A DNA stretch of 64,000 nt from Flavobacteriales bacterium. Its GTDB lineage: Bacteria > Bacteroidota > Bacteroidia > Flavobacteriales > UBA7312. Shown here piece after piece: positions 645-55,797 of this stretch. The notes under the pieces are model-generated. The model had not been told where the DNA came from and searched no databases. It saw only the letters and a program-made list of their open reading frames with translations. Every line of letters begins with the position of its first letter. Positions within the stretch are counted from its first letter, which is position 1. The DNA lies in contig JAQWJZ010000030.1 of NCBI GenBank assembly GCA_029248105.1, positions 62,001-126,000 of the forward strand, in the 5' to 3' direction. The position numbers and the translations under genes were made by a program.

Positions 645-2108
645 TCATTTATTTGCTTCTTTAAGTACAACTTCTGATAACTGCTCTACACCAATATTTC
701 CTTTTATTGCATTAACAAGAATTTTCTTCTCATTATCTAATAGGTAAACCTTTGGAGTTCCATTGATATCGTACAGTTGCTTAATGTAGGGGAAAGGGGT
801 AACGTAAGGGTCATTTTGTCGATTGTATTCACCATCAACATAGGTTTTAAATTCAGCAACATTTGTCCAATCACCAATATCATATGTGTTGATGAAGTCA
901 GTCCATTTGCCTCTATCAAGTTCAACACTAACAGCCACTACTTCTATACTAATGCCATCTTTTAACCATTGGTCATAGTTTTGCTTGATTACAGGGATTT
1001 CTTTCTTACAATGTCCGCAATCGGGGTCATAGAAAATCACCATTGTCAAATCTTTATCAATTTGATGTAAGTTGTGAATGACATCGGAAGAGTCTCTTAA
1101 AATCAAGTTAGGGGCTTTTGAACCAATCATTAATGGTTCAATCGTTTCTGCTCTATCTACAATCTTGAACATTTGAGTATCATCGACCCAAGTAACCTCA
1201 TTTGTTTTGTAATATTTATTTACTAAATGAACAAAAACCTTTTCTAGGCCCATTATTTTAGATCGTTCATAATTAGATGTCAGATAAGAAACAACATATC
1301 TGAATACGACCGGATTTGCTCTTGATTTTTCAATCAAATAGTCGCATGATACAATAATAGAATCAGGCACTTTTGAAGTTAGGTTTTCAAGATAAGTATT
1401 AATCTTACTATGAAAAACAGGAGTTCTTATTAAGCGATCATCAGAAAAATCAAATGTGTCGAAGAAATGTGCTTTATAATATTTAAATTGAAAATCCTTA
1501 TCTGGAGTGCCATCTTCTAAAAGTGGGGCATCTGGAATCTCTACCTCTTTACTTGCGTTCAATATTTTGCTGAATAAAATATCAGGGTTATTGGTTGTGA
1601 AATTCTCTTGAAAATCCATTACAATTTTACCCATTTCTTCAATTTGAATATCTATATTTTTCGCATCATTTTCATTAGCATTTTCTTTTGAGCCTTGTAA
1701 TTCTTTCAATGCTTTTTGTTTTTTGGAAATAAACTGAATATAACCATAAAACTTTTCATTTTCATATGAATTGCTAAATTTCATATTTCCAATTAAATCA
1801 TCAATAGAAGTAGAAAATGAAAAACGTTCTTCTGTAACTACCATTTCAAAATAATTACCATCAGGTAATACAACCATATACATACCATGGTCAAGTGTAT
1901 CAGTTCCACTAAAAACAAATCTACCATCGTTGTCTATGTCTGCTGTATCCTTAGCGTATTGTTTATCACCATAATAATAAGCTAACATACAAGTAGTATC
2001 TTTTATTCCCTTTACTTGACCTTCAAATCGAAAGGTCTCTTGTGCAATAGAAATGTTACTTGTAATAATTGCTAAAAATAATAGGGCGCAAGACAAATTT
2101 TTTCTCAT
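645..2108 (-). CDS. DUF4369/TlpA-like thioredoxin-fold protein
   Basis: 487 residues with an N-terminal signal peptide (about 1-22). Residues 25-100 form a beta-rich DUF4369-like region (FRFEGQVKGIKDTTCMLAYY). A mostly helical middle region follows, and then a thioredoxin/TlpA-like domain from about residue 330 to the end. The active-site motif is DPDCGHCKKEIP, a CxxC pair at about residues 365-368, preceded by a strand (MVIFY). Proteins of this architecture are common in Bacteroidota and are thought to be periplasmic or membrane-associated thiol oxidoreductases. The substrate is unknown. It is transcribed away from the DMT transporter and toward the OmpA-like gene. The fold call is strong and the physiological role is open. 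Confidence 0.85.
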   Translation of the reverse strand: MRKNLSCALLFLAIITSNISIAQETFRFEGQVKGIKDTTCMLAYYYGDKQYAKDTADIDNDGRFVFSGTDTLDHGMYMVVLPDGNYFEMVVTEERFSFSTSIDDLIGNMKFSNSYENEKFYGYIQFISKKQKALKELQGSKENANENDAKNIDIQIEEMGKIVMDFQENFTTNNPDILFSKILNASKEVEIPDAPLLEDGTPDKDFQFKYYKAHFFDTFDFSDDRLIRTPVFHSKINTYLENLTSKVPDSIIVSCDYLIEKSRANPVVFRYVVSYLTSNYERSKIMGLEKVFVHLVNKYYKTNEVTWVDDTQMFKIVDRAETIEPLMIGSKAPNLILRDSSDVIHNLHQIDKDLTMVIFYDPDCGHCKKEIPVIKQNYDQWLKDGISIEVVAVSVELDRGKWTDFINTYDIGDWTNVAEFKTYVDGEYNRQNDPYVTPFPYIKQLYDINGTPKVYLLDNEKKILVNAIKGNIGVEQLSEVVLKEANK

Positions 2109-2163
2109 AATATTATAAAATTGAAGTTCAAAAATATAGAGTTATAACGAATTAAACTAATTT

Positions 2164-3057
2164 CTATTTTATAGATTTTTTATCTCCCTTTTTCTTTAGG
2201 TATCCATCTAAAAATACTGTGCCTATTATTATCACAGCTCCTAAATAGAAAGAAAAATTCATGTTTTCAGACTCACCAAACAATAATAATGCCAACAAAA
2301 TACTGTATACCGGTTCAAGGTTAACAGCCATTATAACATTAAAAGGAGATAAAAACTTCATGACTTCTACACTCACAACAAAGGCAAAACTAGTACATAT
2401 TCCGCCTAATATAATGAGGTAAAGCACATCAGTCCAATCGATAATTAAATCTTGAAATGTAAATGAATCTGAAAATAACATGTATATACATACGAACAGG
2501 AAACCCCCTAACATCTCAATTGAAGTTATTTTTTCAGATTCAACTTTATCTACATATAAAGCATTTAAGATTGTAAATAAAGTAGCTAAGAAAGCAGCAA
2601 TAATACCATATATATAACCTGTTAAATAGGAAAAGTCAGCATTCATTGCCATACCGATTGCTATTAGAACCAAAACACCTAAAATAATTTCTCTTAAATA
2701 TATTTTCCTTCTAATAATTAGAGGCTCTAAGATTGAAGAAAATAGGGAAGAAGTACCCATACAAACTACAGCAACAGAAACATTCGAAACTTTTATACTC
2801 TCAAAAAAAAATAACCAATGAGCAGCAACTATACATCCAATACCAAATATCTCTACAAAATGCTTCTTTGAAACTTTTAAAGAATCTGACTTAAAATAGA
2901 TGTATGCAAACAAAAATAAAAAAGCAATTAACATTCGATACCAGACTAATATAGTAGAACCAGTGGTAATAAGTTTACCAAGCACACCTGTCAGCCCTAA
3001 CAAAACTACTATAAGGTGCATCGTTAATAAACTATGCTTATGTATAAAGTTTCTCAA
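2164..3057 (-). CDS. EamA/DMT-family transporter
   Basis: 297 residues, about ten hydrophobic segments, ending in a lysine-rich tail (YLKKKGDKKSIK). The length and two five-helix halves (about 10-140 and 155-285) fit the drug/metabolite transporter superfamily, EamA type. The second half has the typical run NVIMAVNLEPVYSILLALLL. It is an inner-membrane protein and its substrate cannot be read from sequence. It is divergent from yaaA with only 61 bp between the starts, so the two promoters must be close or overlapping. Confidence 0.88.
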   Translation of the reverse strand: MRNFIHKHSLLTMHLIVVLLGLTGVLGKLITTGSTILVWYRMLIAFLFLFAYIYFKSDSLKVSKKHFVEIFGIGCIVAAHWLFFFESIKVSNVSVAVVCMGTSSLFSSILEPLIIRRKIYLREIILGVLVLIAIGMAMNADFSYLTGYIYGIIAAFLATLFTILNALYVDKVESEKITSIEMLGGFLFVCIYMLFSDSFTFQDLIIDWTDVLYLIILGGICTSFAFVVSVEVMKFLSPFNVIMAVNLEPVYSILLALLLFGESENMNFSFYLGAVIIIGTVFLDGYLKKKGDKKSIK

Positions 3058-3118
3058 AATTGTCTAATTTTAGCCTGCAAATGAAATCGATTGTTTTTAA
3101 TAATGCAAATACTATTAT

Positions 3119-4712: not shown

Positions 4713-6431
4713 TTGAAAAGTTTCTCAGAATTAGGACTTTCAAAACCATTAATGCAAGTTCTTCCTGAACTAGGTTTTGAAAATCCATCTCCAATACAAG
4801 AACAAGCCATTCCTTTACTTAATGAAAAACCACAGGATTTTATTGGTTTAGCGCAAACTGGAACCGGTAAAACAGCTGCTTTTGGCTTACCATTACTTGA
4901 TTGGATAAACCCAGATCAAAAAGATACACAAGCTCTAATCTTAGCGCCTACTAGAGAGTTGGGTCAGCAAATAGCTGGTCAATTAGAGATTTTCGCTAAG
5001 TATCTACCAAATATTCGAATCCAATCTGTTTATGGTGGTGCTTCTATTGTTGTGCAAATGAAGGATATCAAACGCCGAACTCCTCAAATTGTTATTGCCA
5101 CACCAGGTCGATTACTAGATTTAATGAGGAGAAAGGTTCTTGATTTAAGCACTATTAGGTTTGTCGTTCTTGACGAAGCTGATGAAATGCTTAATATGGG
5201 TTTTAAAGAAGATTTGGATGATATTCTAGCATATACTGGAGATACCAAAAACACATGGTTATTTTCTGCTACTATGCCTAAAGAAATTAGACATATAGTA
5301 AAAAGCTATATGTCTAAGCCTGTTGAAGTTAAGGTTTCTACTGGCAATCAAGTCAATGAAAATATAGAGCATCAGTATGCTGTTGTTAAGTCTTCAGACA
5401 AATTTGAAGGATTAAAAAGAGTATTAGATGTTGAAGAGGGTTTTAGAGGGGTAATATTTTGCCGTACTAGAATCAAAACTCAACAATTGGCTGATGACTT
5501 AAATAAAAGTGGTTATCAATCAGAGGCGCTTCATGGCGATTTATCGCAAGCGCAAAGAGATAGGGTGATGAAACGCTTTAAAGACCATTCCTTACAAGTA
5601 TTAGTTGCAACAGATGTAGCAGCAAGAGGAATTGATGTGAATGATTTAACCCATGTTATTCATTATGCTTTGCCTGATGACCCATCTTATTATACACACA
5701 GAAGTGGTCGTACAGCCAGAGCAGGCAAAAAAGGAATTTCATTATCTCTATTGACTAATAGAGATATGCGTAAGCTAGACGGCTTGGAAAGAAGCCTAAA
5801 ACTTAAGATTGATAAAATTAGTATTCCTTCTGTTGAAGATATACTAACTATTCGATTAGGTAAGTGGGCACAAAACATTTTAGAGCTTCCAATTAAAAAG
5901 GATTTAAATGGAAAGCTACTAACAGATATTCAAATGCTTTTAGGCTCAATGACTTTTGAAGAGTTAGTTGAAAAATTAGTTTCAAAAGAAATAGACTCTT
6001 TAAACTACACTAAAAAAAGTAAAGACCTTAACGAAAGCAGTAGAGCTTCTAAACGTTCTTCTAGAGATTCTGACAGAAGATCTAAAGGTCGGGACAGAAA
6101 AGGAGATAGAAAATCTGAAAAAAGAGATCGCTCTAAGTCTGACTTTAAAAGAAAAGATAAATCAGAAAATAGAGATAGAAAATCCTCTGCTAAAAAGGGG
6201 AATCGTTTTTTCATTAATGTTGGGAAATCTGATGGTGTAAGCAAATCAGATATGGTCGATTTTATTGCAGAAACAGTTAAAATACGTAAATCAGAAGTTG
6301 GTGATATTGATTTACAAAAAAACTGTAGCTTCTTTGAAGTAGATAGTCGTCATTCTAAAAATGTAGCTAACAGCTTTAAGGGAATATATATAGACGGAAG
6401 AGAATTAAGAGTAAATAGAGATTCAAGATAA
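4713..6431 (+). CDS. DEAD-box ATP-dependent RNA helicase with DbpA-like RNA-binding domain
   Basis: 572 residues. The Q-motif region is PSPIQEQAI (about 26-33), Walker A is AQTGTGKT (47-54), DEAD is at 154-157 and SAT at 185-187. Motif VI is HRSGRTARAGKKG. Residues about 435-500 are a very hydrophilic linker made almost only of Lys, Arg, Ser, Asp and Glu. A C-terminal DbpA/CsdA-like RNA-binding fold follows (FFINVGKSDGVSKSDMVDFI to the end). Family members remodel structured RNA, typically in ribosome assembly or cold adaptation. The start is TTG at 4713, since no in-frame ATG fits the family N-terminus (MKSFSELGLS). The stop abuts the typA start, so the two are probably co-transcribed. Confidence 0.93.
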   Translation: MKSFSELGLSKPLMQVLPELGFENPSPIQEQAIPLLNEKPQDFIGLAQTGTGKTAAFGLPLLDWINPDQKDTQALILAPTRELGQQIAGQLEIFAKYLPNIRIQSVYGGASIVVQMKDIKRRTPQIVIATPGRLLDLMRRKVLDLSTIRFVVLDEADEMLNMGFKEDLDDILAYTGDTKNTWLFSATMPKEIRHIVKSYMSKPVEVKVSTGNQVNENIEHQYAVVKSSDKFEGLKRVLDVEEGFRGVIFCRTRIKTQQLADDLNKSGYQSEALHGDLSQAQRDRVMKRFKDHSLQVLVATDVAARGIDVNDLTHVIHYALPDDPSYYTHRSGRTARAGKKGISLSLLTNRDMRKLDGLERSLKLKIDKISIPSVEDILTIRLGKWAQNILELPIKKDLNGKLLTDIQMLLGSMTFEELVEKLVSKEIDSLNYTKKSKDLNESSRASKRSSRDSDRRSKGRDRKGDRKSEKRDRSKSDFKRKDKSENRDRKSSAKKGNRFFINVGKSDGVSKSDMVDFIAETVKIRKSEVGDIDLQKNCSFFEVDSRHSKNVANSFKGIYIDGRELRVNRDSR

Positions 6432-8192
6432 ATGATGCAATCCATTCGTAACATTGCTATTATAGCACACGTTGACCACGGTAAAACTACTTTAGTCGAC
6501 AAAATTATTCAAGAGTGTGAAACACTAGATAATAGGAAAGATACTGGCGAACTAATACTTGATAATAATGATTTGGAAAGGGAAAGAGGAATTACTATCC
6601 TTTCTAAAAATGTATCAGTAATGTACAAAGATGTTAAAATCAATATTATTGATACTCCGGGTCACGCCGATTTTGGTGGAGAAGTAGAGAGAGTATTAAA
6701 AATGGCTGATGGTGTACTATTATTAGTCGATGCTTTTGAAGGACCTATGCCACAAACTCGTTTTGTTCTTGGAAAAGCTATTGAATTAGGATTAAAGCCT
6801 ATCGTTGTAGTGAATAAGGTTGATAAGGAAAACTGTACACCTGATATAGTTCATGAAGCGGTATTTGATTTAATGTTTAATCTTGATGCTTCAGAAGAGC
6901 AATTGGATTTTGAAACCATTTATGGATCTTCTAAAATGGGTTGGATGAATACCGATTGGAAAAAACAAAACGATAATATTATCCCATTACTGGATGCTAT
7001 TTTAGAAAATATTCCAGAAGCACCTTATCATGAAGGTTCTCCTCAGATGCAAATTACCTCATTAGATTATTCATCATTTAAGGGAAGAATTGCTATTGGT
7101 AGAGTTTTTAGAGGAGATTTATCTGTTGGTAAAGATTATATGCTTTGCAAAAAAGATAGTCAAAAGAAAGTGCGTATTAAAGAATTATATGTCTTTAGTG
7201 GTCTGGGTAGGGAAGAAGTGAAAACTGTTCGTAGTGGTGATTTATGTGCTATTATTGGGCTTGATGATTTTGAGATTGGTGACACTTTAGCTGACTTCGA
7301 AAATCCAGAAGCTATGCCAAGAATTGAAGTTGATGAGCCAACAATGAGTATGTTGTTTACTATTAACAATTCTCCATTTTTCGGAAAAGAAGGCAAGTTT
7401 GTTACTTCAAGGCACCTGAGAGATAGGTTATATAAAGAAACAGAGAAGAATTTAGCTCTTAGAGTAGATGCAACAGATACAGAAGATAAATTTAATGTGT
7501 ATGGAAGGGGAATTCTTCACTTATCTGTACTTATTGAAACCATGCGTCGAGAGGGTTATGAATTACAAGTTGGCAAGCCACAAGTAATAATAAAAGAGAT
7601 TGATGAAGTAAAATGTGAGCCTTATGAAACTCTTGTTATAGATGTACCTGAAGAATTTTCAGGAAAAGCTATAGAGTTAGTCACAATGAGAAAGGGCGAT
7701 TTATTAGTTATGGAACCTAAAGGTGACCTTCAGCATCTTGAATTTGATATTCCTTCAAGAGGATTAATTGGTTTGAGGAATAATATGCTAACATCGACAT
7801 CTGGTCAAGCCGTAATGACACACCGATTTAGAGAGTATAAGCCATTCAAAGGAAATATACCATCTCGATTAAAAGGATCTTTAATATCATCTGAGCAAGG
7901 GCCTGCAACCCCTTTTGCATTGAATAGGTTGCAAGATAGAGGCCGATTCTTTGTTGGACCAGCTGATGTTATTTACAAAGGTCAAGTTATTGGCGAACAT
8001 TCACGAGATAACGATCTAGAAGTTAACTTAGTTAAAGGAAAACAGTTGACTAATATGCGTAAATCTGGAACCGATGATGCTATGAAAATAGCACCTAAAA
8101 CACAATTTTCATTAGAAGAAGCTATGGAGTATATAGCAGAAGATGAATATTTAGAAGTAACACCAGAAAGTCTTAGAATGAGAAAAATCTAA
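6432..8192 (+). CDS. typA: Ribosome-associated GTPase TypA/BipA
   Basis: 586 residues, near the usual family length of about 600. G1 is AHVDHGKT (12-19), the switch II region contains [12 protein letters not shown] and G4 is NKVDKE. Elongation-factor-like domains follow, ending in the TypA-specific C-terminal domain ([19 protein letters not shown]). TypA binds the ribosome and is needed for efficient growth and large-subunit assembly under stress or cold. ATG at 6432 directly follows the TAA of the helicase; a second ATG lies at 6435. Pairing with an RNA helicase suggests a shared ribosome-assembly task. Confidence 0.97.
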
Positions 8193-8262: not shown

Positions 8263-9468
8263 ATGAGAATAGCAGTAATAGGCGGAGGGGCAGCCGGATT
8301 TATGGCAGCCATAACAGCACAGTCATCTGATCCAAAGTCAGATGTTATTCTATTCGAAAAATCAGACAAAGTTTTATCAAAGGTCAAAATATCTGGTGGA
8401 GGGCGTTGTAATGTCACAAATGCTTGTTTCAGTATTGCAGAATTAACTAAGCAATACCCAAGAGGGGGAGCTTTTCTTAAAAAATCCTTTTCACATTTTT
8501 TTACTAAAGATACCATAGGTTGGTTTAATGAAAAAGGAGTAACCCTAAAAGCCGAAGAGGATAACAGAATGTTTCCTACTTCAGATGATTCACAAACTAT
8601 TATAGATTGCTTGATAAGCGAACTCAAGTCATTAAATATAAAGTTATGTTATCAAAGTGCAATTAAAAAAATATCACCACATTCAAATAAGGGCTGTACA
8701 CTAGAAGTAAATAGTCAAAATATAAAAGTAGATAGATTAATCATTGCTACTGGCGGAAGTCCAAAAATACAAGGCTTGCAATGGTTGATGGATTTGGGAT
8801 ACAAAGTAGAAAAGCCTGTACCATCACTTTTCACTTTCAATATGCCAAATGAGGATATAAAAGAACTCATGGGGGTTGTTGCTCAAAACACAAAGGTTCA
8901 TATACAAGGAAGTAAATTAAAACATAGCGGACCTTTATTAATTACTCATTGGGGTATGAGTGGACCTGCCATATTAAAATCATCGGCTTGGGGAGCAAGA
9001 AAGCTAGCCGAAAACAACTACCAATTTACTGTTCATATTAATTGGGCAAATTTGAATGAGATAGACTATATCGATTATATAAAAGAAAATAAAAACAGCA
9101 ATAGAATTATAGGAAATAAAAACCCATTTAATTTACCTAATCGACTATGGCTATACCTACTCAAAAAAATAGGTGTTGATAGTAATATTGAATGGAATAA
9201 ATTGGATAAAAAAAGCGGGAATAGATTGTTAAACGTTTTATTTAACGATTCATATAAAGTAAATGGAAAAACAACTTTTAAAGAAGAATTTGTTACTTGT
9301 GGAGGTGTTTCATTAGATCAAGTAAACCCTAACACTCTGGAGAGTAAAATTCACAAAGGGATGTTTTTCTGTGGTGAAATATTAGATATTGATGGAGTAA
9401 CAGGGGGCTTTAATTTTCAATCCGCATGGACCACTGGGTATTTAGCTGGTAAAAACAGTACATTATGA
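8263..9468 (+). CDS. HI0933/YhiN-family flavoprotein (NAD(P)/FAD-dependent oxidoreductase)
   Basis: 401 residues. The N-terminal dinucleotide-binding motif is IGGGAAGFMAA (about 6-16), followed by EKSDKVLSKVKISGGGRCNVTN, the HI0933-family signature. The C-terminal end has CGEILDIDGVTGGFNFQ, which closes the FAD site in this family. The physiological reaction of most members is not established. The protein is cytosolic. The stop TGA overlaps the start of the next gene (ATGA at 9465-9468), indicating translational coupling. I am confident of the family and not of the substrate. Confidence 0.93.
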   Translation: MRIAVIGGGAAGFMAAITAQSSDPKSDVILFEKSDKVLSKVKISGGGRCNVTNACFSIAELTKQYPRGGAFLKKSFSHFFTKDTIGWFNEKGVTLKAEEDNRMFPTSDDSQTIIDCLISELKSLNIKLCYQSAIKKISPHSNKGCTLEVNSQNIKVDRLIIATGGSPKIQGLQWLMDLGYKVEKPVPSLFTFNMPNEDIKELMGVVAQNTKVHIQGSKLKHSGPLLITHWGMSGPAILKSSAWGARKLAENNYQFTVHINWANLNEIDYIDYIKENKNSNRIIGNKNPFNLPNRLWLYLLKKIGVDSNIEWNKLDKKSGNRLLNVLFNDSYKVNGKTTFKEEFVTCGGVSLDQVNPNTLESKIHKGMFFCGEILDIDGVTGGFNFQSAWTTGYLAGKNSTL

Positions 9469-11345
9469 ATTATTTATCGGTAGAAAATTTAGGTAAAAAT
9501 TATGGAGAACGTGTTTTGTTTGAAGGTTTAACCTTTGGACTAAGTCAAGGTGATAAAATGGCACTTATTGCCAATAATGGCACAGGTAAATCTAGTATGT
9601 TAAAAATAATAGCTGGTGCAGATGTATCAGATGAAGGAAGTGTAACCTTGAGAAATGGTATTAGAACTGGATATCTTTCTCAAGAACCAAACTTTGATAA
9701 CTCTTTAACTATTGAAAAGCTAATTACTGAAAGTCAGACTGAAATAACCAAACTAATTAAAGAATATGAACAAGCACTTATCAATATAGAAAAGGAGCAT
9801 AACTCTCACAATAACAAGTCTTTAGAAGAGTTAACTGCTAAAATGGATAAGGTTAATGCCTGGGACTATGAACGAAGGATTAAACAAATACTATCTAAAT
9901 TTAATATCAATGATTTATCTCAAGAAGTAGGTGACCTTTCCGGTGGACAGAAAAAACGATTATCTCTCGCTTTACTATTATTAGATGAGCCTGAATTGCT
10001 TCTACTTGATGAACCAACTAACCATCTTGATGTAGAAATGATAGAATGGTTAGAAAAATACCTCCAACAACAGAAAATCACATTACTTATGGTTACCCAT
10101 GACAGGTATTTTCTAGATAGAGTATGTAATCATATATTAGAATTAGAAGACGGTAAACTTTTTCATCATTCAGGAAATTACGCCTATTTTCTTGAAAAAA
10201 GAGCTGAAAGAGAAGCGATTTACGACACTGATTTATCAAAAGCGGGAAAGCTAATGAAAAAGGAATTAGAATGGATGAGAAGATCTCCAAAAGCCCGTAC
10301 AACAAAATCTAAGGCTAGGATAACTAATTTTGAAATTATTAAAGAGAAAGCAAGTAATAAAAAGGTAAAACATGAATTAAACCTTGAAATTAAAATGAGT
10401 AGGATAGGAGGTAAAATCCTTGAACTCAAAAAGGTTTATAAAAGCTATGATGATCTCAAAATATTAAACGGTTTCGACTACACCTTTAAAAAGGGTGAAC
10501 GCATTGGTATAGTTGGTAAAAATGGAGTTGGAAAGTCAACTTTTTTAAATATTCTTACAGGTTTAGAAAAACCAGATAGTGGAAAAGTAAATATTGGCGA
10601 AACGATAGTTTACGGATATTTTTCTCAAAAAGGAATTCAACTTAAAGAGGATAAAAGAGTTATTGACTCATTAAAAGAGATAGCTGAAGTAATCATTATG
10701 GCTAATGGCTCGAAAGTTACAGCATCACAAATGCTAACTCATTTCATGTTTCCGCCAAAGACACAACATACTTTTGTATCAAAACTCAGTGGAGGAGAAA
10801 AGAGAAGATTATATTTACTTATGGTCCTCATGAAAAATCCTAATTTCTTAATCCTTGATGAACCTACAAATGATTTGGATTTATTAACTCTTAATAAACT
10901 TGAAGAATTTTTATTACAATTTAGCGGTTGTTTAATAATCGTTTCACATGATAGGTATTTCATGGATAAACTTACCGATCACTTGTTTGTGTTTAAAGGT
11001 GAGGGCATAATAAAAGATGAATATTGTAGCTATTCAGAGTATAGGGAAAAACAACTTATTGAAGAAAAAAAGAATAAAGATCAAGCAGCTCAAATTAAGT
11101 TAGCAACTGTTGATAAAGAAGTAAAAAAAACCAAAAAAATTAGCTTCAAGGACAAATTTGAATATGAACAGTTAGAGAAAGAGATTGAGCTTCTAGAAAT
11201 GAGTAAAAAGAAATTAGAAGAAGAGTTAGTTGTCGAAGGCTTATCATTTCAAGATATTAATAAGAAAAGTGATGAACTAGGAAAGGTTATTCTTGAGTTA
11301 GATGAAAAAACAATGCGTTGGTTAGAGCTCGATGAATTGATGTAA
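9465..11345 (+). CDS. ABC-F ATPase, Uup-like
   Basis: 626 residues with two ABC domains in one chain and no membrane segments. The first P-loop is ANNGTGKSS (about 36-44), with signature DLSGGQKKRLSL and LLLLDEPTNHLD. The linker contains the ABC-F 'RRSPKARTTKSKARI' element. The second P-loop is VGKNGVGKST, with KLSGGEKRRLYL and LILDEPTNDLD. A Lys/Glu-rich C-terminal coiled coil (about 535-626) is the Uup-type extension. ABC-F proteins act on the ribosome, and Uup also influences DNA intermediates and ribosome assembly. It is translationally coupled to the upstream flavoprotein. ettA at 44278-45963 is the second ABC-F protein here and lacks this tail. Confidence 0.92.
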   Translation: MNYLSVENLGKNYGERVLFEGLTFGLSQGDKMALIANNGTGKSSMLKIIAGADVSDEGSVTLRNGIRTGYLSQEPNFDNSLTIEKLITESQTEITKLIKEYEQALINIEKEHNSHNNKSLEELTAKMDKVNAWDYERRIKQILSKFNINDLSQEVGDLSGGQKKRLSLALLLLDEPELLLLDEPTNHLDVEMIEWLEKYLQQQKITLLMVTHDRYFLDRVCNHILELEDGKLFHHSGNYAYFLEKRAEREAIYDTDLSKAGKLMKKELEWMRRSPKARTTKSKARITNFEIIKEKASNKKVKHELNLEIKMSRIGGKILELKKVYKSYDDLKILNGFDYTFKKGERIGIVGKNGVGKSTFLNILTGLEKPDSGKVNIGETIVYGYFSQKGIQLKEDKRVIDSLKEIAEVIIMANGSKVTASQMLTHFMFPPKTQHTFVSKLSGGEKRRLYLLMVLMKNPNFLILDEPTNDLDLLTLNKLEEFLLQFSGCLIIVSHDRYFMDKLTDHLFVFKGEGIIKDEYCSYSEYREKQLIEEKKNKDQAAQIKLATVDKEVKKTKKISFKDKFEYEQLEKEIELLEMSKKKLEEELVVEGLSFQDINKKSDELGKVILELDEKTMRWLELDELM

Positions 11346-50105: not shown

Positions 50106-51491
50106 CTAATCTAGTAGAGCTTGATGTACCTTTTTAAGAATCTCAAAACACTTAGCTTGATTTTTAGCTTCAGCATAGGTACGCAATACGGGTTCTGTTC
50201 CTGAAGGTCGTATCATTATCCAACTGTCTGCATCGAAGTAGTATTTAAAACCATCAATAGTTTCTGTTTTTACTATTGGCATATCGCCAAAGGCTGTATA
50301 AACACCTTTCTCGCAATTCTCTACTATTTCTAACTTTTTAGCTTCATCAAGGTGTAAGTCTATACGTTCAAAGGCAAATTCCCCTACTATATCGTACACT
50401 TCTTGAATAAGATCGTCTAAACTCTTACCTGTCTTTGCCATGTATTCCCAAATGACTAAGCCCATCCATATACCATCTCTTTCAGGAATATGCCCTTTGA
50501 TAGCGACACCACCAGACTCTTCACCACCTAGTAAAACATCTTCTTTGAGCATCACTCCTGCTACGTGCTTAAACCCTACTTTGACAATTTCGTGCTCCAA
50601 TCCATAATGCTTACACATTTGCTCTACCTTAACTGAACAAGAAAAGGCTGTAACAATCTTGCCATTCATTCCCTTATATTTTACCAAATAATGAATTAAC
50701 AACAAAATAATGTGATGAGAGTCAATGAAATCACCTTTGCTATTATAAAGCCCTATCCTATCGGCATCACCATCGGTAGCTAAACCGCAATCTATTTTGC
50801 CAGTAGTTTTGATATATTCTGAAAATTCTAAAAGATTTCTGTGTATAGGCTCAGGAGCAGTGCCTTTAAAACCGGGGTTATTAGTGCAATGGAATAAGGT
50901 CGTTTCAGGTAATAAAGCTGGAACAGCTTCTCTACCAGCACCATACATAGCATCATAACCCCAATTGAAATCTGAATTATTAATAGCCTCTAAGTCAAAA
51001 TTAGCTTTGGCCTTATCCAAATACATCTGAACCAAATCAGCCGTTTCTACTCCATCCATTGTTAGGCTTTTTAAATCCAAGCCATGAGTATCAGGGATAA
51101 TATCTTCTACCGCTTGTATATCGTCTGATAACAATGGACCTCCAAAATTCCCTTTAAGCTTGTAGCCGTTGTATTCTGGCGGATTATGACTAGCTGTAAT
51201 AACAACACCCAAATCAGCTTTAAGCTCTACAACACCCAAAGAAAGCATAGGCGTACTCACAAAACGGTCTGCCATAGTTACCTTAATACCAAAATGGTTA
51301 AATACCTTAGCCGCTGTTTCAGCAAATAAAGGCCCTGCAAAACGACAATCGTGACCAATAACTACCGATGGATTATCGAAATTATCATTTAACCATTGTG
51401 AGGCAGCTACGGTTACTCGTGCTACATTATCTACAGTGTAGTCTTGTGCTATTATAGCTCTCCAGCCGTCAGTTCCAAATTTAATTTTCAT
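50106..51491 (-). CDS. Phosphohexomutase (phosphoglucomutase/phosphomannomutase family)
   Basis: 461 residues. The phosphoserine is Ser101 in ITASHNPPEYNGYK. The metal loop is DGDADRIG, followed by GGEESGG (sugar recognition) and IRPSGTEP (phosphate binding). The enzyme interconverts hexose 1- and 6-phosphates. The exact sugar (Glc, Man or GlcN) cannot be separated from the sequence alone. It follows mltG by seven bases in a dapF-GNAT-cytochrome-mltG-mutase run. Confidence 0.93.
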   Translation of the reverse strand: MKIKFGTDGWRAIIAQDYTVDNVARVTVAASQWLNDNFDNPSVVIGHDCRFAGPLFAETAAKVFNHFGIKVTMADRFVSTPMLSLGVVELKADLGVVITASHNPPEYNGYKLKGNFGGPLLSDDIQAVEDIIPDTHGLDLKSLTMDGVETADLVQMYLDKAKANFDLEAINNSDFNWGYDAMYGAGREAVPALLPETTLFHCTNNPGFKGTAPEPIHRNLLEFSEYIKTTGKIDCGLATDGDADRIGLYNSKGDFIDSHHIILLLIHYLVKYKGMNGKIVTAFSCSVKVEQMCKHYGLEHEIVKVGFKHVAGVMLKEDVLLGGEESGGVAIKGHIPERDGIWMGLVIWEYMAKTGKSLDDLIQEVYDIVGEFAFERIDLHLDEAKKLEIVENCEKGVYTAFGDMPIVKTETIDGFKYYFDADSWIMIRPSGTEPVLRTYAEAKNQAKCFEILKKVHQALLD

Positions 51492-51498
51492 AAATGTT

Positions 51499-52551
51499 TT
51501 ATCTTTTAATGTTTCTGTTATTCAGGGCATTTCTATATTTAGCTGCATTAGCATAGTGTTGCAATCCAGATACGGCAAAATTATGAAATCCTGAAAAATC
51601 CTCTTTTGCACACATGTATAAATAATCATGCTTTTCGTAATTTAATACGGCATCTATAGCACGAATGGATGGTAAAAAGATTGGCCCTATAGGTAATCCT
51701 TTGTATTTGTATGTATTGAAAGGAGAATCGTATTTTAAATCTTTCTTCAGTACCCGTCTAATTGAAAAATCGCCAATGGCAAAAATCACGGTTGGATCGG
51801 ATTGTAATTTCATACCCTTTCTCAGGCGGTTAATGTATAATCCCGCTACTATTGGCTGCTCACTTTTTTGAAGAGTTTCTTTCTCTACTATAGAAGCTAA
51901 AGTAACCACTTCTTCAGGAGATAAATTTAATTGCCTAGCTTTTGCCCTACGGCTATTATTCCAAAAATGATGGTGTTCTGCAACCATACGTGAAAGAAAA
52001 TTCGTTACGGTAGTATTCCAATAAAATTCATAGGTATTGGGTATAAACAAACTACTGACATTAAAAGCATTTAACCCCACTTGATTTAAAAAAATGGTAT
52101 CTAGCATAGCATCCAAAATCTCTAAAGAGTCTAATTCTATCTGAGAGGCTATTTTACCAGCAAACTCTTCTTTAGTACGCATGTTATTGAAAACTACATT
52201 GACAGGTGTTTGACGTCCAGAACGAAGCAGATTAACTAGCTCATTATTGTTCATGCCATCTTTTAAAAGATAACGACCCGACTTGATGTTATTGGTATAA
52301 CGCTTCTGCTCCGAAATCCAACGAAAAGAAGACGAACTGATGATGACACCTTCATCTGAAAGTATCTGTAAAACATCCTCAAAACTAGCACCAGTAGGAA
52401 TATAAATATAAACGTCTTTTTGATACTCTAAAGATACATTGGGCTTATATATTCTGCCTAAAAAAACCGATGCCGTAATAGCGCCACTTAAAAAAAGAAC
52501 GCCTATTAAACTCCAAATAAATTTTGTAAAAAAACTTTTCTTCTTTCTCAT
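51499..52551 (-). CDS. mltG: Endolytic murein transglycosylase MltG
   Basis: 350 residues. An N-terminal membrane segment (about 10-30) precedes a LysM-like region and the YceG/MltG catalytic core. The catalytic Glu is in LASIVEKETLQKSEQP (about 225), followed by LQSDPTVIFAIG and SPFNTYKYKGLPIGPI. It cuts nascent peptidoglycan strands and sets their length. Its ATG overlaps the cytochrome stop by one base. Confidence 0.94.
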   Translation of the reverse strand: MRKKKSFFTKFIWSLIGVLFLSGAITASVFLGRIYKPNVSLEYQKDVYIYIPTGASFEDVLQILSDEGVIISSSSFRWISEQKRYTNNIKSGRYLLKDGMNNNELVNLLRSGRQTPVNVVFNNMRTKEEFAGKIASQIELDSLEILDAMLDTIFLNQVGLNAFNVSSLFIPNTYEFYWNTTVTNFLSRMVAEHHHFWNNSRRAKARQLNLSPEEVVTLASIVEKETLQKSEQPIVAGLYINRLRKGMKLQSDPTVIFAIGDFSIRRVLKKDLKYDSPFNTYKYKGLPIGPIFLPSIRAIDAVLNYEKHDYLYMCAKEDFSGFHNFAVSGLQHYANAAKYRNALNNRNIKR

Positions 52552-54398
52552 TAAAGTGTACTCAAAAGATACTCAACCTTGGCGTTATCAGGGTCTATAT
52601 CTAAAATTAGCTTCAAATATAACTTTCCTTTACTAATTTCACCTTTCAAAATCATTAAACTTGCTTTATTCAATAGAGATTGTATGTGTTGAGGGTTTAA
52701 ATCTAAAGCATTATTGTAACAGTCCAAAGCGGCTTGCTGTTGTCCTTGCTGTAGCAAAACATAACCCAAGTTACACCATGCGTTTTCATGCTTTGAAAAC
52801 TGCGCCAAAAGGGTTCTGTATTCTTTCTCCGCTTCTGGGTATAATAATAATGAGGAGTACATATCTGCTAACTTCAAGCGAAAATCTAATACATAAGGGC
52901 TCAAGTCCACTGATATCAGATAGAATGATAAACTTTGTTTACTCAACCCTTGATTTTGATAAGATTGCGCTATTCGATAAGCTGTCCAAGCATCAGAATT
53001 GTCATATGACTTCTTATCAAGAGATAAATCATCTAAAGAGTTACAAATATTTAAAATAGAAATATCATCTTCTTTAAGGTAGTAAAGGTGTATGCGTTCT
53101 TTAAAAGACTTTTCCAAAGAAATAGAATTTAATAAGCTAAGTGCTGAGTCGAGCAAATACGGTTGAGAATCAAATTTTTCGTACTGATATAAATAGGCTT
53201 TTGCTCTAGTTATTTTCGATGGATTAGAATTATTAACCGCCTCAAGTCCTATGAATTCACCCTTAGGATGGAGAGTGTCTTTAAGATTATGGATTCCTAT
53301 TTTATGATCGTGAATACTCACATGTGGAATGTCAATTGTAGATGATGACGGCATATGACATTCAACGCAATTATTATTTTCTCTAAACTCATCTTTACAA
53401 TCGTCATGACAAGACAAACATTTGTCGTTAAAGAAGTTTGGACTTTCTTTCTTAACCGAATGATGTGGGTTATGACAAGTAATACAATTCATTTCGGAAT
53501 TGGTGAAACAAGCACTTTGCTTAAATCTATCCACATGAGAAGCCATAATGAAAGTGTTATCGTCTTTGTACCTAGGCACAAAGACGGTCATTACATCTGA
53601 CAATTCCATTCCTGGCTTAAAATCCAAAAAGCTTTTACCTTCTTCTAAGACCGTATTTCCTTGAAGATGACAGCGCATGCAAATTTGAAATTGAGCCTCT
53701 AATGACAATTTTTTAGGGTTTACAATAGAGTAATCTATATGTTGTGAAGTATCTACTATTTCTCCGTTCATCATACGCTGAACGTGTAATTCACCGGGAC
53801 CATGACAGCGTTCACAATCTATACCTTGAGGGATAGAATTGTATTTGTTTTCAGAACCTAAAACAAAGTCAGGCATTGCATTATGACAACTCATGCATTC
53901 TAAGCCTATTTTTCTAGAGAAACGGCTATTATACCCACCTTCAAAACCGGGTGGGAAATCCAAGTGCCCATCTTGGGTATAGTAAGTAAAAGGCATTTGA
54001 TGAACATATCCATTTTCTTCCCACAAATGCGAATTAGTATGATGTCCTGAACCAACAATAAAATCCACATCTTCTATACGTTCACCGAAGTCATGTAACT
54101 CCTTTAATTTCAACACACTATCTTTCCAATATGGCTGATAATGAAAATTGTGAAAGGTGTCTTTTAATATAGATTTATCCGTAAAAATAGCTTCACTATT
54201 TGATGGCGTAGCTAAGGACATAGACTGTCCCATTCCAGTATGAATATAGGTTTGATAAATATCGTAATGACAAGCCATACAACTTTCCTTCCCTACATAG
54301 GCTACCGTATCATTATGATTGAGATAAGAGGTATAGGGCTCAACCTTGCTCGTACAACTGACTAAAGCAAAAAATATGTACACATAAACTAATCGCAC
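52551..54398 (-). CDS. Seven-heme c-type cytochrome lipoprotein with C-terminal TPR domain
   Basis: 615 residues. A lipoprotein signal ends at Cys15 (FFALVSC). Seven CxxCH heme sites follow: CMACH (40-44), CMSCH, CERCH, CMRCH, CITCH, CLSCH and CVECH (the last near 350). From about residue 390 to the end the protein is helical with TPR units (NAWCNLGYVLLQQGQQQAAL, then NPQHIQSLLNKASLMILKGE). The heme part resembles the cytochrome c554/NrfA-associated families. Electron donor and substrate are not visible. It is an extracytoplasmic lipid-anchored protein. No other respiratory gene is adjacent; the neighbours are murein and amino-acid genes. Confidence 0.93.
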   Translation of the reverse strand: MRLVYVYIFFALVSCTSKVEPYTSYLNHNDTVAYVGKESCMACHYDIYQTYIHTGMGQSMSLATPSNSEAIFTDKSILKDTFHNFHYQPYWKDSVLKLKELHDFGERIEDVDFIVGSGHHTNSHLWEENGYVHQMPFTYYTQDGHLDFPPGFEGGYNSRFSRKIGLECMSCHNAMPDFVLGSENKYNSIPQGIDCERCHGPGELHVQRMMNGEIVDTSQHIDYSIVNPKKLSLEAQFQICMRCHLQGNTVLEEGKSFLDFKPGMELSDVMTVFVPRYKDDNTFIMASHVDRFKQSACFTNSEMNCITCHNPHHSVKKESPNFFNDKCLSCHDDCKDEFRENNNCVECHMPSSSTIDIPHVSIHDHKIGIHNLKDTLHPKGEFIGLEAVNNSNPSKITRAKAYLYQYEKFDSQPYLLDSALSLLNSISLEKSFKERIHLYYLKEDDISILNICNSLDDLSLDKKSYDNSDAWTAYRIAQSYQNQGLSKQSLSFYLISVDLSPYVLDFRLKLADMYSSLLLYPEAEKEYRTLLAQFSKHENAWCNLGYVLLQQGQQQAALDCYNNALDLNPQHIQSLLNKASLMILKGEISKGKLYLKLILDIDPDNAKVEYLLSTL

Positions 54399-54904
54399 AA
54401 CAATTGAAACATCAATTCATCTTCCCAACCATTGGGAGATTTATTCCATTTTTTCTTTGCTCCAATCAACATAAAGTCTAATGAGCTGAATAGGTTTATA
54501 CTAGGCTGATTACTAGCTGATATATTGCAATACAACTGATTGAGTTGTAATTTGAAAAAAGCATACTCTATCATCAGTCTAAGAGCTTCTTTGGCATAAC
54601 CCTTTCTCCTATCTGACTCTTGAACAATCCATATACCCAAACCAGCTCTCATGTGAATAGGTTCAAAATCAAAAAGCTCTATGGTGCCAATAGAAACTCC
54701 ATCTTTTTCAATCATTAATCGAAGTTGCTTTGCTGTAAATATATCTTGATGTGCATTTTCTAGATATCTTGATAAAATATGCTTTGAAAAAGGAGCATAT
54801 GTTTGGCTTATTTTCCAAATAGTAGAGTCGTTTTCCCATTGGTAAAATAAATCTAAATCTTCTGGCTCTAAAGCCCTCAACTTAATATTTTCTCCTTCTA
54901 GCAT
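54389..54904 (-). CDS. GNAT-family N-acetyltransferase (RimJ/RimL-like)
   Basis: 171 residues. Core pieces are NIKLRALEPEDLDLFYQWEND, a central beta region (IGTIELFDFEPIHMRAGLGIWI), the acetyl-CoA loop QESDRRKGYAKEAL, and LNQLYCNISASNQPSINLF. It acetylates an amine, in relatives the N-terminus of ribosomal proteins or small molecules. It overlaps both neighbours (10 and 7 bases), so it is part of the same operon. Confidence 0.9.
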   Translation of the reverse strand: MLEGENIKLRALEPEDLDLFYQWENDSTIWKISQTYAPFSKHILSRYLENAHQDIFTAKQLRLMIEKDGVSIGTIELFDFEPIHMRAGLGIWIVQESDRRKGYAKEALRLMIEYAFFKLQLNQLYCNISASNQPSINLFSSLDFMLIGAKKKWNKSPNGWEDELMFQLLCD

Positions 54905-55671
54905 ATCGTTTCTCCTTTAAAAACACAGCGATATGGACCCATTAAATTTATAGCTGTATAATTTTTGTCTTTATCAAAAGTTACTTTTAAATCACCACCA
55001 AAGGCCTTAACTTCTATGGATTGTGTGCTTATTAATCCAGACTCAAAAGCCGAAAGAGCTGAAGCAACAATACCTGTACCACAAGCTAAAGTTTCATCTT
55101 CCACACCCCTTTCATAAGTTCTTATATACAATTTGTCATCATTAAACTCTACAAAATTGACATTCGTGCCATCATCCTTAAAACGTGTATTATAACGTAT
55201 CTTTTTGCCCTCACTAACTACATCTAAATCGTTTATTGAATCAACAAATTTAACATAATGCGGTGAGCCTGTATCTAAGAAGAAATACCCTTCACCAACT
55301 TCAATGTTATGAACATCTTGCATTCTTAAAGTAACCTCTGACTGACTCCATATCGCTTGATGAGCACCGTCACATGCTAAAAAATGACATTCTTTGTCAA
55401 ATAGGTTCAATTGTTTAGCAAAGTCCACTATGCACCTTCCACCATTGCCACACATAGAACCCAATTGACCGTCGGCATTGAAATAAATCATTTCAAAGTC
55501 ATAGTTTTCTACCGATTGTAATAAAATTAAGCCATCAGCTCCAATTCCTTTTCTTCGGTTACACAGGTGTTTGATAAGTTTATGATTTGAAGTATCGAAA
55601 CGCTTAGCCCGATTGTCAATCATAATAAAGTCGTTTCCAGCACCCTCATATTTGTGAAACTCTATTTTCAT
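54898..55671 (-). CDS. dapF: Diaminopimelate epimerase
   Basis: 257 residues. Two catalytic cysteines: C74 in MCGNGGRC and the one in LACGTGIVA near residue 196. The start MKIEFHKYEGAGNDF and the two mirrored domains fit DapF. It converts LL- to meso-diaminopimelate for murein and lysine. It opens the minus-strand run to the mutase. A TAAATTTG box (55676-55683) ends five bases before the ATG. Confidence 0.97.
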   Translation of the reverse strand: MKIEFHKYEGAGNDFIMIDNRAKRFDTSNHKLIKHLCNRRKGIGADGLILLQSVENYDFEMIYFNADGQLGSMCGNGGRCIVDFAKQLNLFDKECHFLACDGAHQAIWSQSEVTLRMQDVHNIEVGEGYFFLDTGSPHYVKFVDSINDLDVVSEGKKIRYNTRFKDDGTNVNFVEFNDDKLYIRTYERGVEDETLACGTGIVASALSAFESGLISTQSIEVKAFGGDLKVTFDKDKNYTAINLMGPYRCVFKGETIC

Positions 55672-55675
55672 GCTT

Positions 55676-55683
55676 CAAATTTA
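55676..55683 (-). promoter_or_regulatory. -7 element (TAAATTTG) of the dapF operon
   Basis: Exact match on the minus strand ending about five bases before the dapF ATG. Confidence 0.55.
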
Positions 55684-55730
55684 AGTAAAGCAAACGTATT
55701 TTGTACACTTTTCATTTTTCTAAAATTTTA

Positions 55731-55760
55731 TTGTTTGTGAATATCAAAACTGTAAATTTG
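55731..55760 (+). promoter_or_regulatory. Consensus promoter of GAPDH (TTG-N19-TAAATTTG)
   Basis: TTG (55731-55733), exactly 19 bases, then TAAATTTG (55753-55760), a textbook Bacteroidota promoter 38 bases before the ATG. Confidence 0.8.
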
Positions 55761-55797
55761 CCGAAACTAACTAACATACCTTTACACCTTACTTAAA

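Follow-up and report, generated by a model that had tools for sequence, protein, structure and literature searches.

A seven-heme lipoprotein with a C-terminal TPR domain, here called CYT, is encoded between murein genes in the order dapF-GNAT-CYT-mltG-phosphohexomutase, and this synteny is a real, selected feature of the Flavobacteriales loci that carry it, beyond a chance neighbourhood. The protein belongs to an apparently uncharacterised heptaheme-TPR family, and we tentatively read it as a periplasmic oxidoreductase or relay of the c554/OcwA type that may be docked near MltG and co-expressed with the murein genes, without entering murein chemistry. Because several Bacteroidota families keep a multiheme cytochrome in place among their murein genes, a coupling of envelope redox to wall growth is directly testable, and at least one carrier is apparently a cultured aerobe.

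A heptaheme-TPR lipoprotein in a murein gene operon

The window, a 64-kb stretch of a Flavobacteriales genome (1.74 Mb, 99% complete), carries CYT at 52551..54398 on the minus strand as an open reading frame (ORF) of 615 aa with a GTG start, which is the only full match to CYT in this genome. The signal and lipobox (FALVSC), both read by eye, occupy residues 1-15; they are followed by a heme domain (about residues 24-376) with a beta region inserted at about 60-150, and by a helical TPR part (about residues 395-615), within which Pfam places the TPR domain at 509-613 and a comparison with TPR proteins of solved structure at 468-612. Pfam also matched Cytochrome_C554, C7, and paired-CXXCH domains in the protein. 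The ORF contains seven CxxCH motifs; a scan with the strict codon pattern returned 10 matches in the window, seven of them inside CYT, against 2.61 expected across the whole 64 kb, and 10 were reached in none of 100 shuffles. The first-pass annotation had placed seven CxxCH sites, a lipobox, and a C-terminal TPR domain at 52551-54398, and all three were borne out with the coordinates exact. AlphaFold models are good, with a mean pLDDT of 88.3 for the full length and 86.2 for the heme domain.

The lipobox Cys and the seven hemes are invariant in 30/30 and 52/52 aligned homologs, the rows of both alignments having been picked for seven CxxCH. In an unselected set, 78 of 80 homologs have seven CxxCH, and the two others contain an internal stop (L043) or unread letters (L090). 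The L043 gene (genome G150, 1256-3118) has a single TAG stop in a draft genome and may represent a pseudogene, recoding, or an assembly error. The libraries and literature searched (open-licence PMC) returned nothing on a characterised member of the family.

All five genes of the cluster are on the minus strand. Upstream of CYT are dapF (54898..55671), encoding diaminopimelate epimerase (TIGR00652, 207.5 bits; cut-off 114.65), and a gene for a GNAT N-acetyltransferase (54389..54904; PF13302). Downstream are mltG (51499..52551), encoding the endolytic murein transglycosylase (TIGR00247, 200.8 bits; cut-off 103.4), and a GlmM/PGM-like phosphohexomutase gene (50106..51491; PF02878-PF02880), which scores below the GlmM cut-offs. 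Non-coding sequence between these genes is nearly nil: dapF and GNAT overlap by 7 bp, GNAT and CYT by 10 bp, and CYT and mltG by 1 bp at the CYT stop codon (TAATG), and a gap of 7 bp separates mltG from the phosphohexomutase gene. The one-base and ten-base overlaps noted in the first-pass annotation are thus correct, and they support its proposal of a co-regulated link between electron transfer and wall synthesis as far as co-expression is concerned; a functional coupling of the two is hypothetical. CYT is probably co-transcribed with dapF, GNAT, and mltG, and its translation is probably coupled to theirs. A divergent intergenic region of 126 bp (55672..55797) lies between dapF and a GAPDH-like gene, and contains two matches to the promoter motif TAnnTTTG towards dapF (55676 and 55691); however, this motif is not enriched in the window (96 found versus 98.0 expected) and is uninformative.

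Conservation of the gene order in Flavobacteriales

Sixty loci were taken from the order, mostly with flanking sequence, of which 59 hold a long CYT and one a short paralog; the 59 long-form loci and the window made up the 60 loci scored. In 54 of the 59 loci with enough downstream sequence, mltG comes immediately after CYT, and the gap between the two genes is at most 25 bp throughout, the value of -528 in L089 being a start-codon artefact. Either dapF or GNAT is found upstream of CYT in 59/60 loci, with L052 the exception. By contrast, the outer neighbours of the same loci vary: the phosphohexomutase gene follows mltG in 24/56, and the divergent GAPDH-like gene adjoins dapF in 30/58. The inner genes are kept at high rates and the outer ones are not, indicating that a core is retained while its flanks change, and simple gene-order drift, which had been offered as the alternative explanation, is rejected by these counts. 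The five loci that lack mltG directly after CYT are L040, L046, L056, L059, and L066. Elsewhere in the genome, mltG was read in four of the genomes concerned, G021, G182, G083, and G032 (in the last about 7 kb downstream), and no mltG was found in the fifth, G013 (76% complete).

Distribution of CYT and the operon without it

In the family of the window, CYT is present in 9/10 genomes, its own included, and is missing from one that is 54% complete. Across the order sample, 101 of 296 genomes match CYT at E<=1e-30; in family f3, five of the matching genomes have only a short, TPR-less paralog, and some of the other matches are contig-cut fragments. The long form occurs in eight of the 16 families (f1, f5, f7, f8, f11, f13, f14, and f15) and is missing from the other eight. 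The order dapF-GNAT-CYT-mltG is kept among CYT carriers of the Flavobacteriales, but CYT itself is patchy there. In the phylum sample, 42/395 genomes match, including the genome of the window and seven short forms; the remaining matches are more distant and often present in two or three copies. Selection appears to hold the gene order in the CYT-bearing families of the order and in some neighbouring Bacteroidia.

Of the two observations that the first-pass annotation had named as speaking against its reading, one, mltG and dapF adjoining without the cytochrome, was made. Among the matches listed, and counting only genomes with both hits visible, mltG and dapF lie within 1.3 kb on one strand in 47 of 50 genomes without long CYT, as judged by eye (f3, 32/33; f6, 10/10; other families, 5/7); four of the 50, all f3, carry the short paralog. 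In G010, G025, and G240, the two genes are on different contigs. Ten loci (L142-L149, L152, and L153) were read as dapF-(GNAT)-mltG without CYT. Since the operon stands without it, CYT is an optional member. One short paralog, L091 (G108, family f3; 5902-7125), is a 407-aa TPR-less heptaheme protein that, by eye, is encoded among unrelated genes and has His at the position of the near-invariant M56 of CYT.

Dependence on Ccm was considered as a cause of this distribution and discarded: at E<=1e-8, a threshold at which a diverged CcmE could be missed, CcmE was found in 50/296 genomes of the order and in 0/10 of the window's family, and it is present in g55 and g61, two genera of f8 that lack CYT.

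Other gene neighbourhoods of CYT

A further set of 80 named loci (L161-L240) includes many Flavobacteriales, and four of its members (L161, L163, L166, and L176) duplicate order loci; it also holds a locus of Saprospira grandis (L219), a cultured carrier. In the 73 that were readable, mltG directly follows CYT in 28 and does not in 45; two of the latter (L179 and L239) have mltG one gene beyond the next gene. Eight non-duplicate loci (L170, L183, L185, L191, L194, L212, L221, and L222) keep CYT-mltG with neither dapF nor GNAT recognised within 4 kb upstream. None of the 20 phylum loci has mltG directly after CYT.

Upstream of CYT in 13 loci are genes for a PASTA protein and a T9SS-tail protein, accompanied by rhodanese in 11 and Ddl in eight; mltG is directly downstream in three of the 13 (L185, L191, and L194). 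This neighbourhood is possibly a second wall-linked context. The PASTA, T9SS-tail, and rhodanese genes all precede CYT in nine of nine loci (L204, L210, L218, L225-L227, and L231-L233), and Ddl occurs in six of these nine (about 900 aa; domains duplicated in L226). The tyrosyl-tRNA synthetase gene (tyrS) lies upstream of CYT in eight named loci, and in a Rhodothermaceae-like group a T9SS-tail protein is encoded downstream.

The other observation named in the first-pass annotation, the cytochrome standing with respiratory genes in relatives, was made only sporadically in a tally that covers the identified neighbours, a minority outside the order. CcmC-like and CcmE genes are located near CYT in L194 (1189-2441), as are CcmF and CcmE in L197 (11490-14440). 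In L226, a cytochrome b561-like membrane protein (9199-9795) is encoded directly after CYT and is a possible membrane partner in that one lineage. Tandem pairs of heptaheme-TPR genes in L123-L125, L128, and L216 are followed, with an overlap of about 18 bp, by a gene for a homologous protein of 683-685 aa, which has a T9SS tail by Pfam in L123 and is split over two frames in L216.

Phylogeny and conserved residues

The tree and the conservation counts were restricted to sequences that are 560 aa or longer and have seven CxxCH (153 rows, then 148 after removal of five near-duplicates). In the tree, built with FastTree only and marked by long branches, the sequences of the order fall in one 65-row clade (support 93) together with a few named loci. 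Adjacency to mltG needs at least 15 changes on this tree, which is compatible with its gain or its loss alike.

Eight His or Met residues are near-invariant: M56, H120, H124, H205, H288, H312, H359, and H365. Position 56, which lies twelve residues past the first CxxCH, holds Met in 147/148 rows; H288 is replaced by Q in 14/146, and H359 is changed in six. Counting ligands as a route to an open heme was abandoned, as these eight candidates suffice to ligate all seven hemes; one of the hemes may be open. An SGxHTxSH loop, a candidate active-site loop, is present in 59/60 order loci (the miss being the truncated L043) and in 18/20 phylum loci, a set not fetched by motif; three outgroup rows, L137, L140, and L238, lack it. 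Loci L161-L240 were fetched partly with the pattern SG[QH]HTNSH, so their share of the motif is not independent.

Possible roles of CYT

In our preferred reading, which we hold tentatively, CYT would be a lipoprotein of the cell envelope that most probably faces the periplasm, with an N-terminal half that acts as a seven-heme wire or oxidoreductase and a C-terminal half that acts as a TPR docking module. It could relay or take up electrons in the periplasm, presumably reducing or oxidising a small molecule at one heme, and its lipid anchor and TPR part may hold it close to MltG where the envelope grows; the murein genes and the cytochrome would be made together, with CYT taking no part in murein chemistry. 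Against this reading stand the eight families without a long CYT, the ten loci read as dapF-(GNAT)-mltG alone, the CYT genes that mltG does not directly follow (5/59 order, 45/73 named, and 20/20 phylum loci), the sufficiency of the eight His or Met residues as ligands, and the lack of a match to a NapC/NrfH-type donor in the genome. Nearly as likely, and the main rival, is operon inertia, whereby the gene of an ordinary periplasmic redox protein with no functional tie to murein was added to an ancient dapF-GNAT-mltG operon, or disappeared from it in other families, and persists in place since genes with such tight overlaps are not easily split apart. The CYT-less dapF-mltG operons (47 of the 50 genomes with both hits listed, with ten loci read) agree with such a history, as does the placement of CYT elsewhere in other lineages, next to tyrS (eight named loci) or the PASTA and T9SS-tail genes (13); however, within the same loci the CYT-mltG pair is much better conserved than the genes flanking the core, and the pair is found behind other upstream genes as well.

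Two further explanations were weighed. By analogy with NlpI, LpoA, and ActH, CYT could be a redox-gated regulator, a TPR lipoprotein that binds MltG or a synthase-MltG complex and whose heme state adjusts the release of glycan strands to respiration or nitrosative stress. The overlap and conservation of CYT-mltG, the TPR-lipoprotein precedents (NlpI, PMC7049810), the fold match to ActH (7tj4, Z 17.4), and the possibly wall-linked PASTA context, with Ddl upstream in part of the loci, all speak for this role, but half of the families lack CYT while retaining mltG, and many CYT genes do not adjoin mltG; we consider it unlikely. The corresponding picture of a heme-based redox or NO sensor-scaffold, in which CYT would read the redox state of the periplasm and its TPR part would switch MltG and tie respiration to glycan-strand length in Bacteroidota, is doubtful to a like degree. 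Very improbable is an OcwA-like cytochrome that serves respiration or carries electrons out of the cell, even though the closest solved fold is that of OcwA, described in PMC6703420 as a cell-surface terminal reductase. The genome has an ACIII-oxidase-like cluster, with cytochrome c, Fe-S, NrfD, and cytochrome oxidase subunit II by Pfam, but it is on another contig (C29, L241) than CYT; no donor of the NapC/NrfH type was matched in the genome; by eye, no surface-export signal follows the lipid Cys; and one carrier, apparently Owenweeksia hongkongensis, has been described as a strict aerobe.

Comparison with known systems

An outer-membrane TPR lipoprotein as a scaffold for murein enzymes is a known theme, exemplified by NlpI (PMC7049810). 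NlpI, LpoA, LbcA, and ActH all carry TPRs, reside in the envelope, in several cases as lipoproteins of the outer membrane, and are tied to wall enzymes. CYT shares with NlpI-like regulators the lipobox (read by eye) and the TPR domain, and its TPR half matches the folds of many TPR proteins, ActH (7tj4) being one of many such rows. The NlpI family NF008391 matches 10/52 CYT homologs (E<=1e-5), with the window CYT at 14.4 bits against a cut-off of 250. NlpI, LpoA, and ActH bind their enzymes, and none of these or LbcA is known to carry hemes; binding of CYT to a murein enzyme would be hypothetical.

Fold searches with the whole protein gave mostly TPR proteins, and the heme domain was therefore modelled alone. 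Its best match is OcwA (Z 15.9, 287 residues, rmsd 4.0, 20% identity), followed by an undecaheme cytochrome (6qvm, Z 10.8) and MccA (Z 8.2). The scores of NrfA (Z 5.7) and c554 (Z 4.4) are below that of an unrelated beta protein (2qmi, 6.2), so the case for kinship with these two comes from the sequence profile, in which OcwA (E 1.8e-14) leads 6r2q (4.6e-11), NrfA (2.1e-6), and c554 (3.3e-4). The 6r2q entry, labelled cystathionine beta-synthase in the table, is presumably the MtrA chain of an Mtr complex. Profile alignments to 6i5b, 3ubr, and 1bvb place the c-type hemes of CYT in the c554/OcwA core order. On these models and profiles, the heme half is a member of the c554/OcwA/NrfA superfamily and shares its fold with OcwA and MccA. 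The NCBIfam decaheme cytochromes GSU2203 and DmsE also match 52/52 CYT homologs (E<=1e-5), but the window CYT is far below their curated cut-offs (51.9 versus 325 bits and 42.1 versus 192.2 bits, respectively). The active-site heme of NrfA is bound by CxxCK, a motif found in 0/80 CYT homologs. CYT shares an aligned CExCHGPG motif with c554 and OcwA; at the position of M56 in CYT, however, both of these proteins have a His, which in c554 ligates a heme.

The closest of the known systems is OcwA of Thermincola potens (PDB 6i5b). The first four CxxCH of the two proteins align in order, and in both a beta region is inserted in the heme domain, described for OcwA as an extra beta-sheet domain in PMC6703420. 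The same paper reports weak, slow nitrite reduction and hydroxylamine activity, with hemes 2 and 5 open; the second heme of CYT aligns with the presumed second CxxCH of OcwA. However, OcwA has nine hemes rather than seven, which places CYT outside OcwA proper; it is located on a Gram-positive surface and ends in a three-helix bundle where CYT has a TPR domain.
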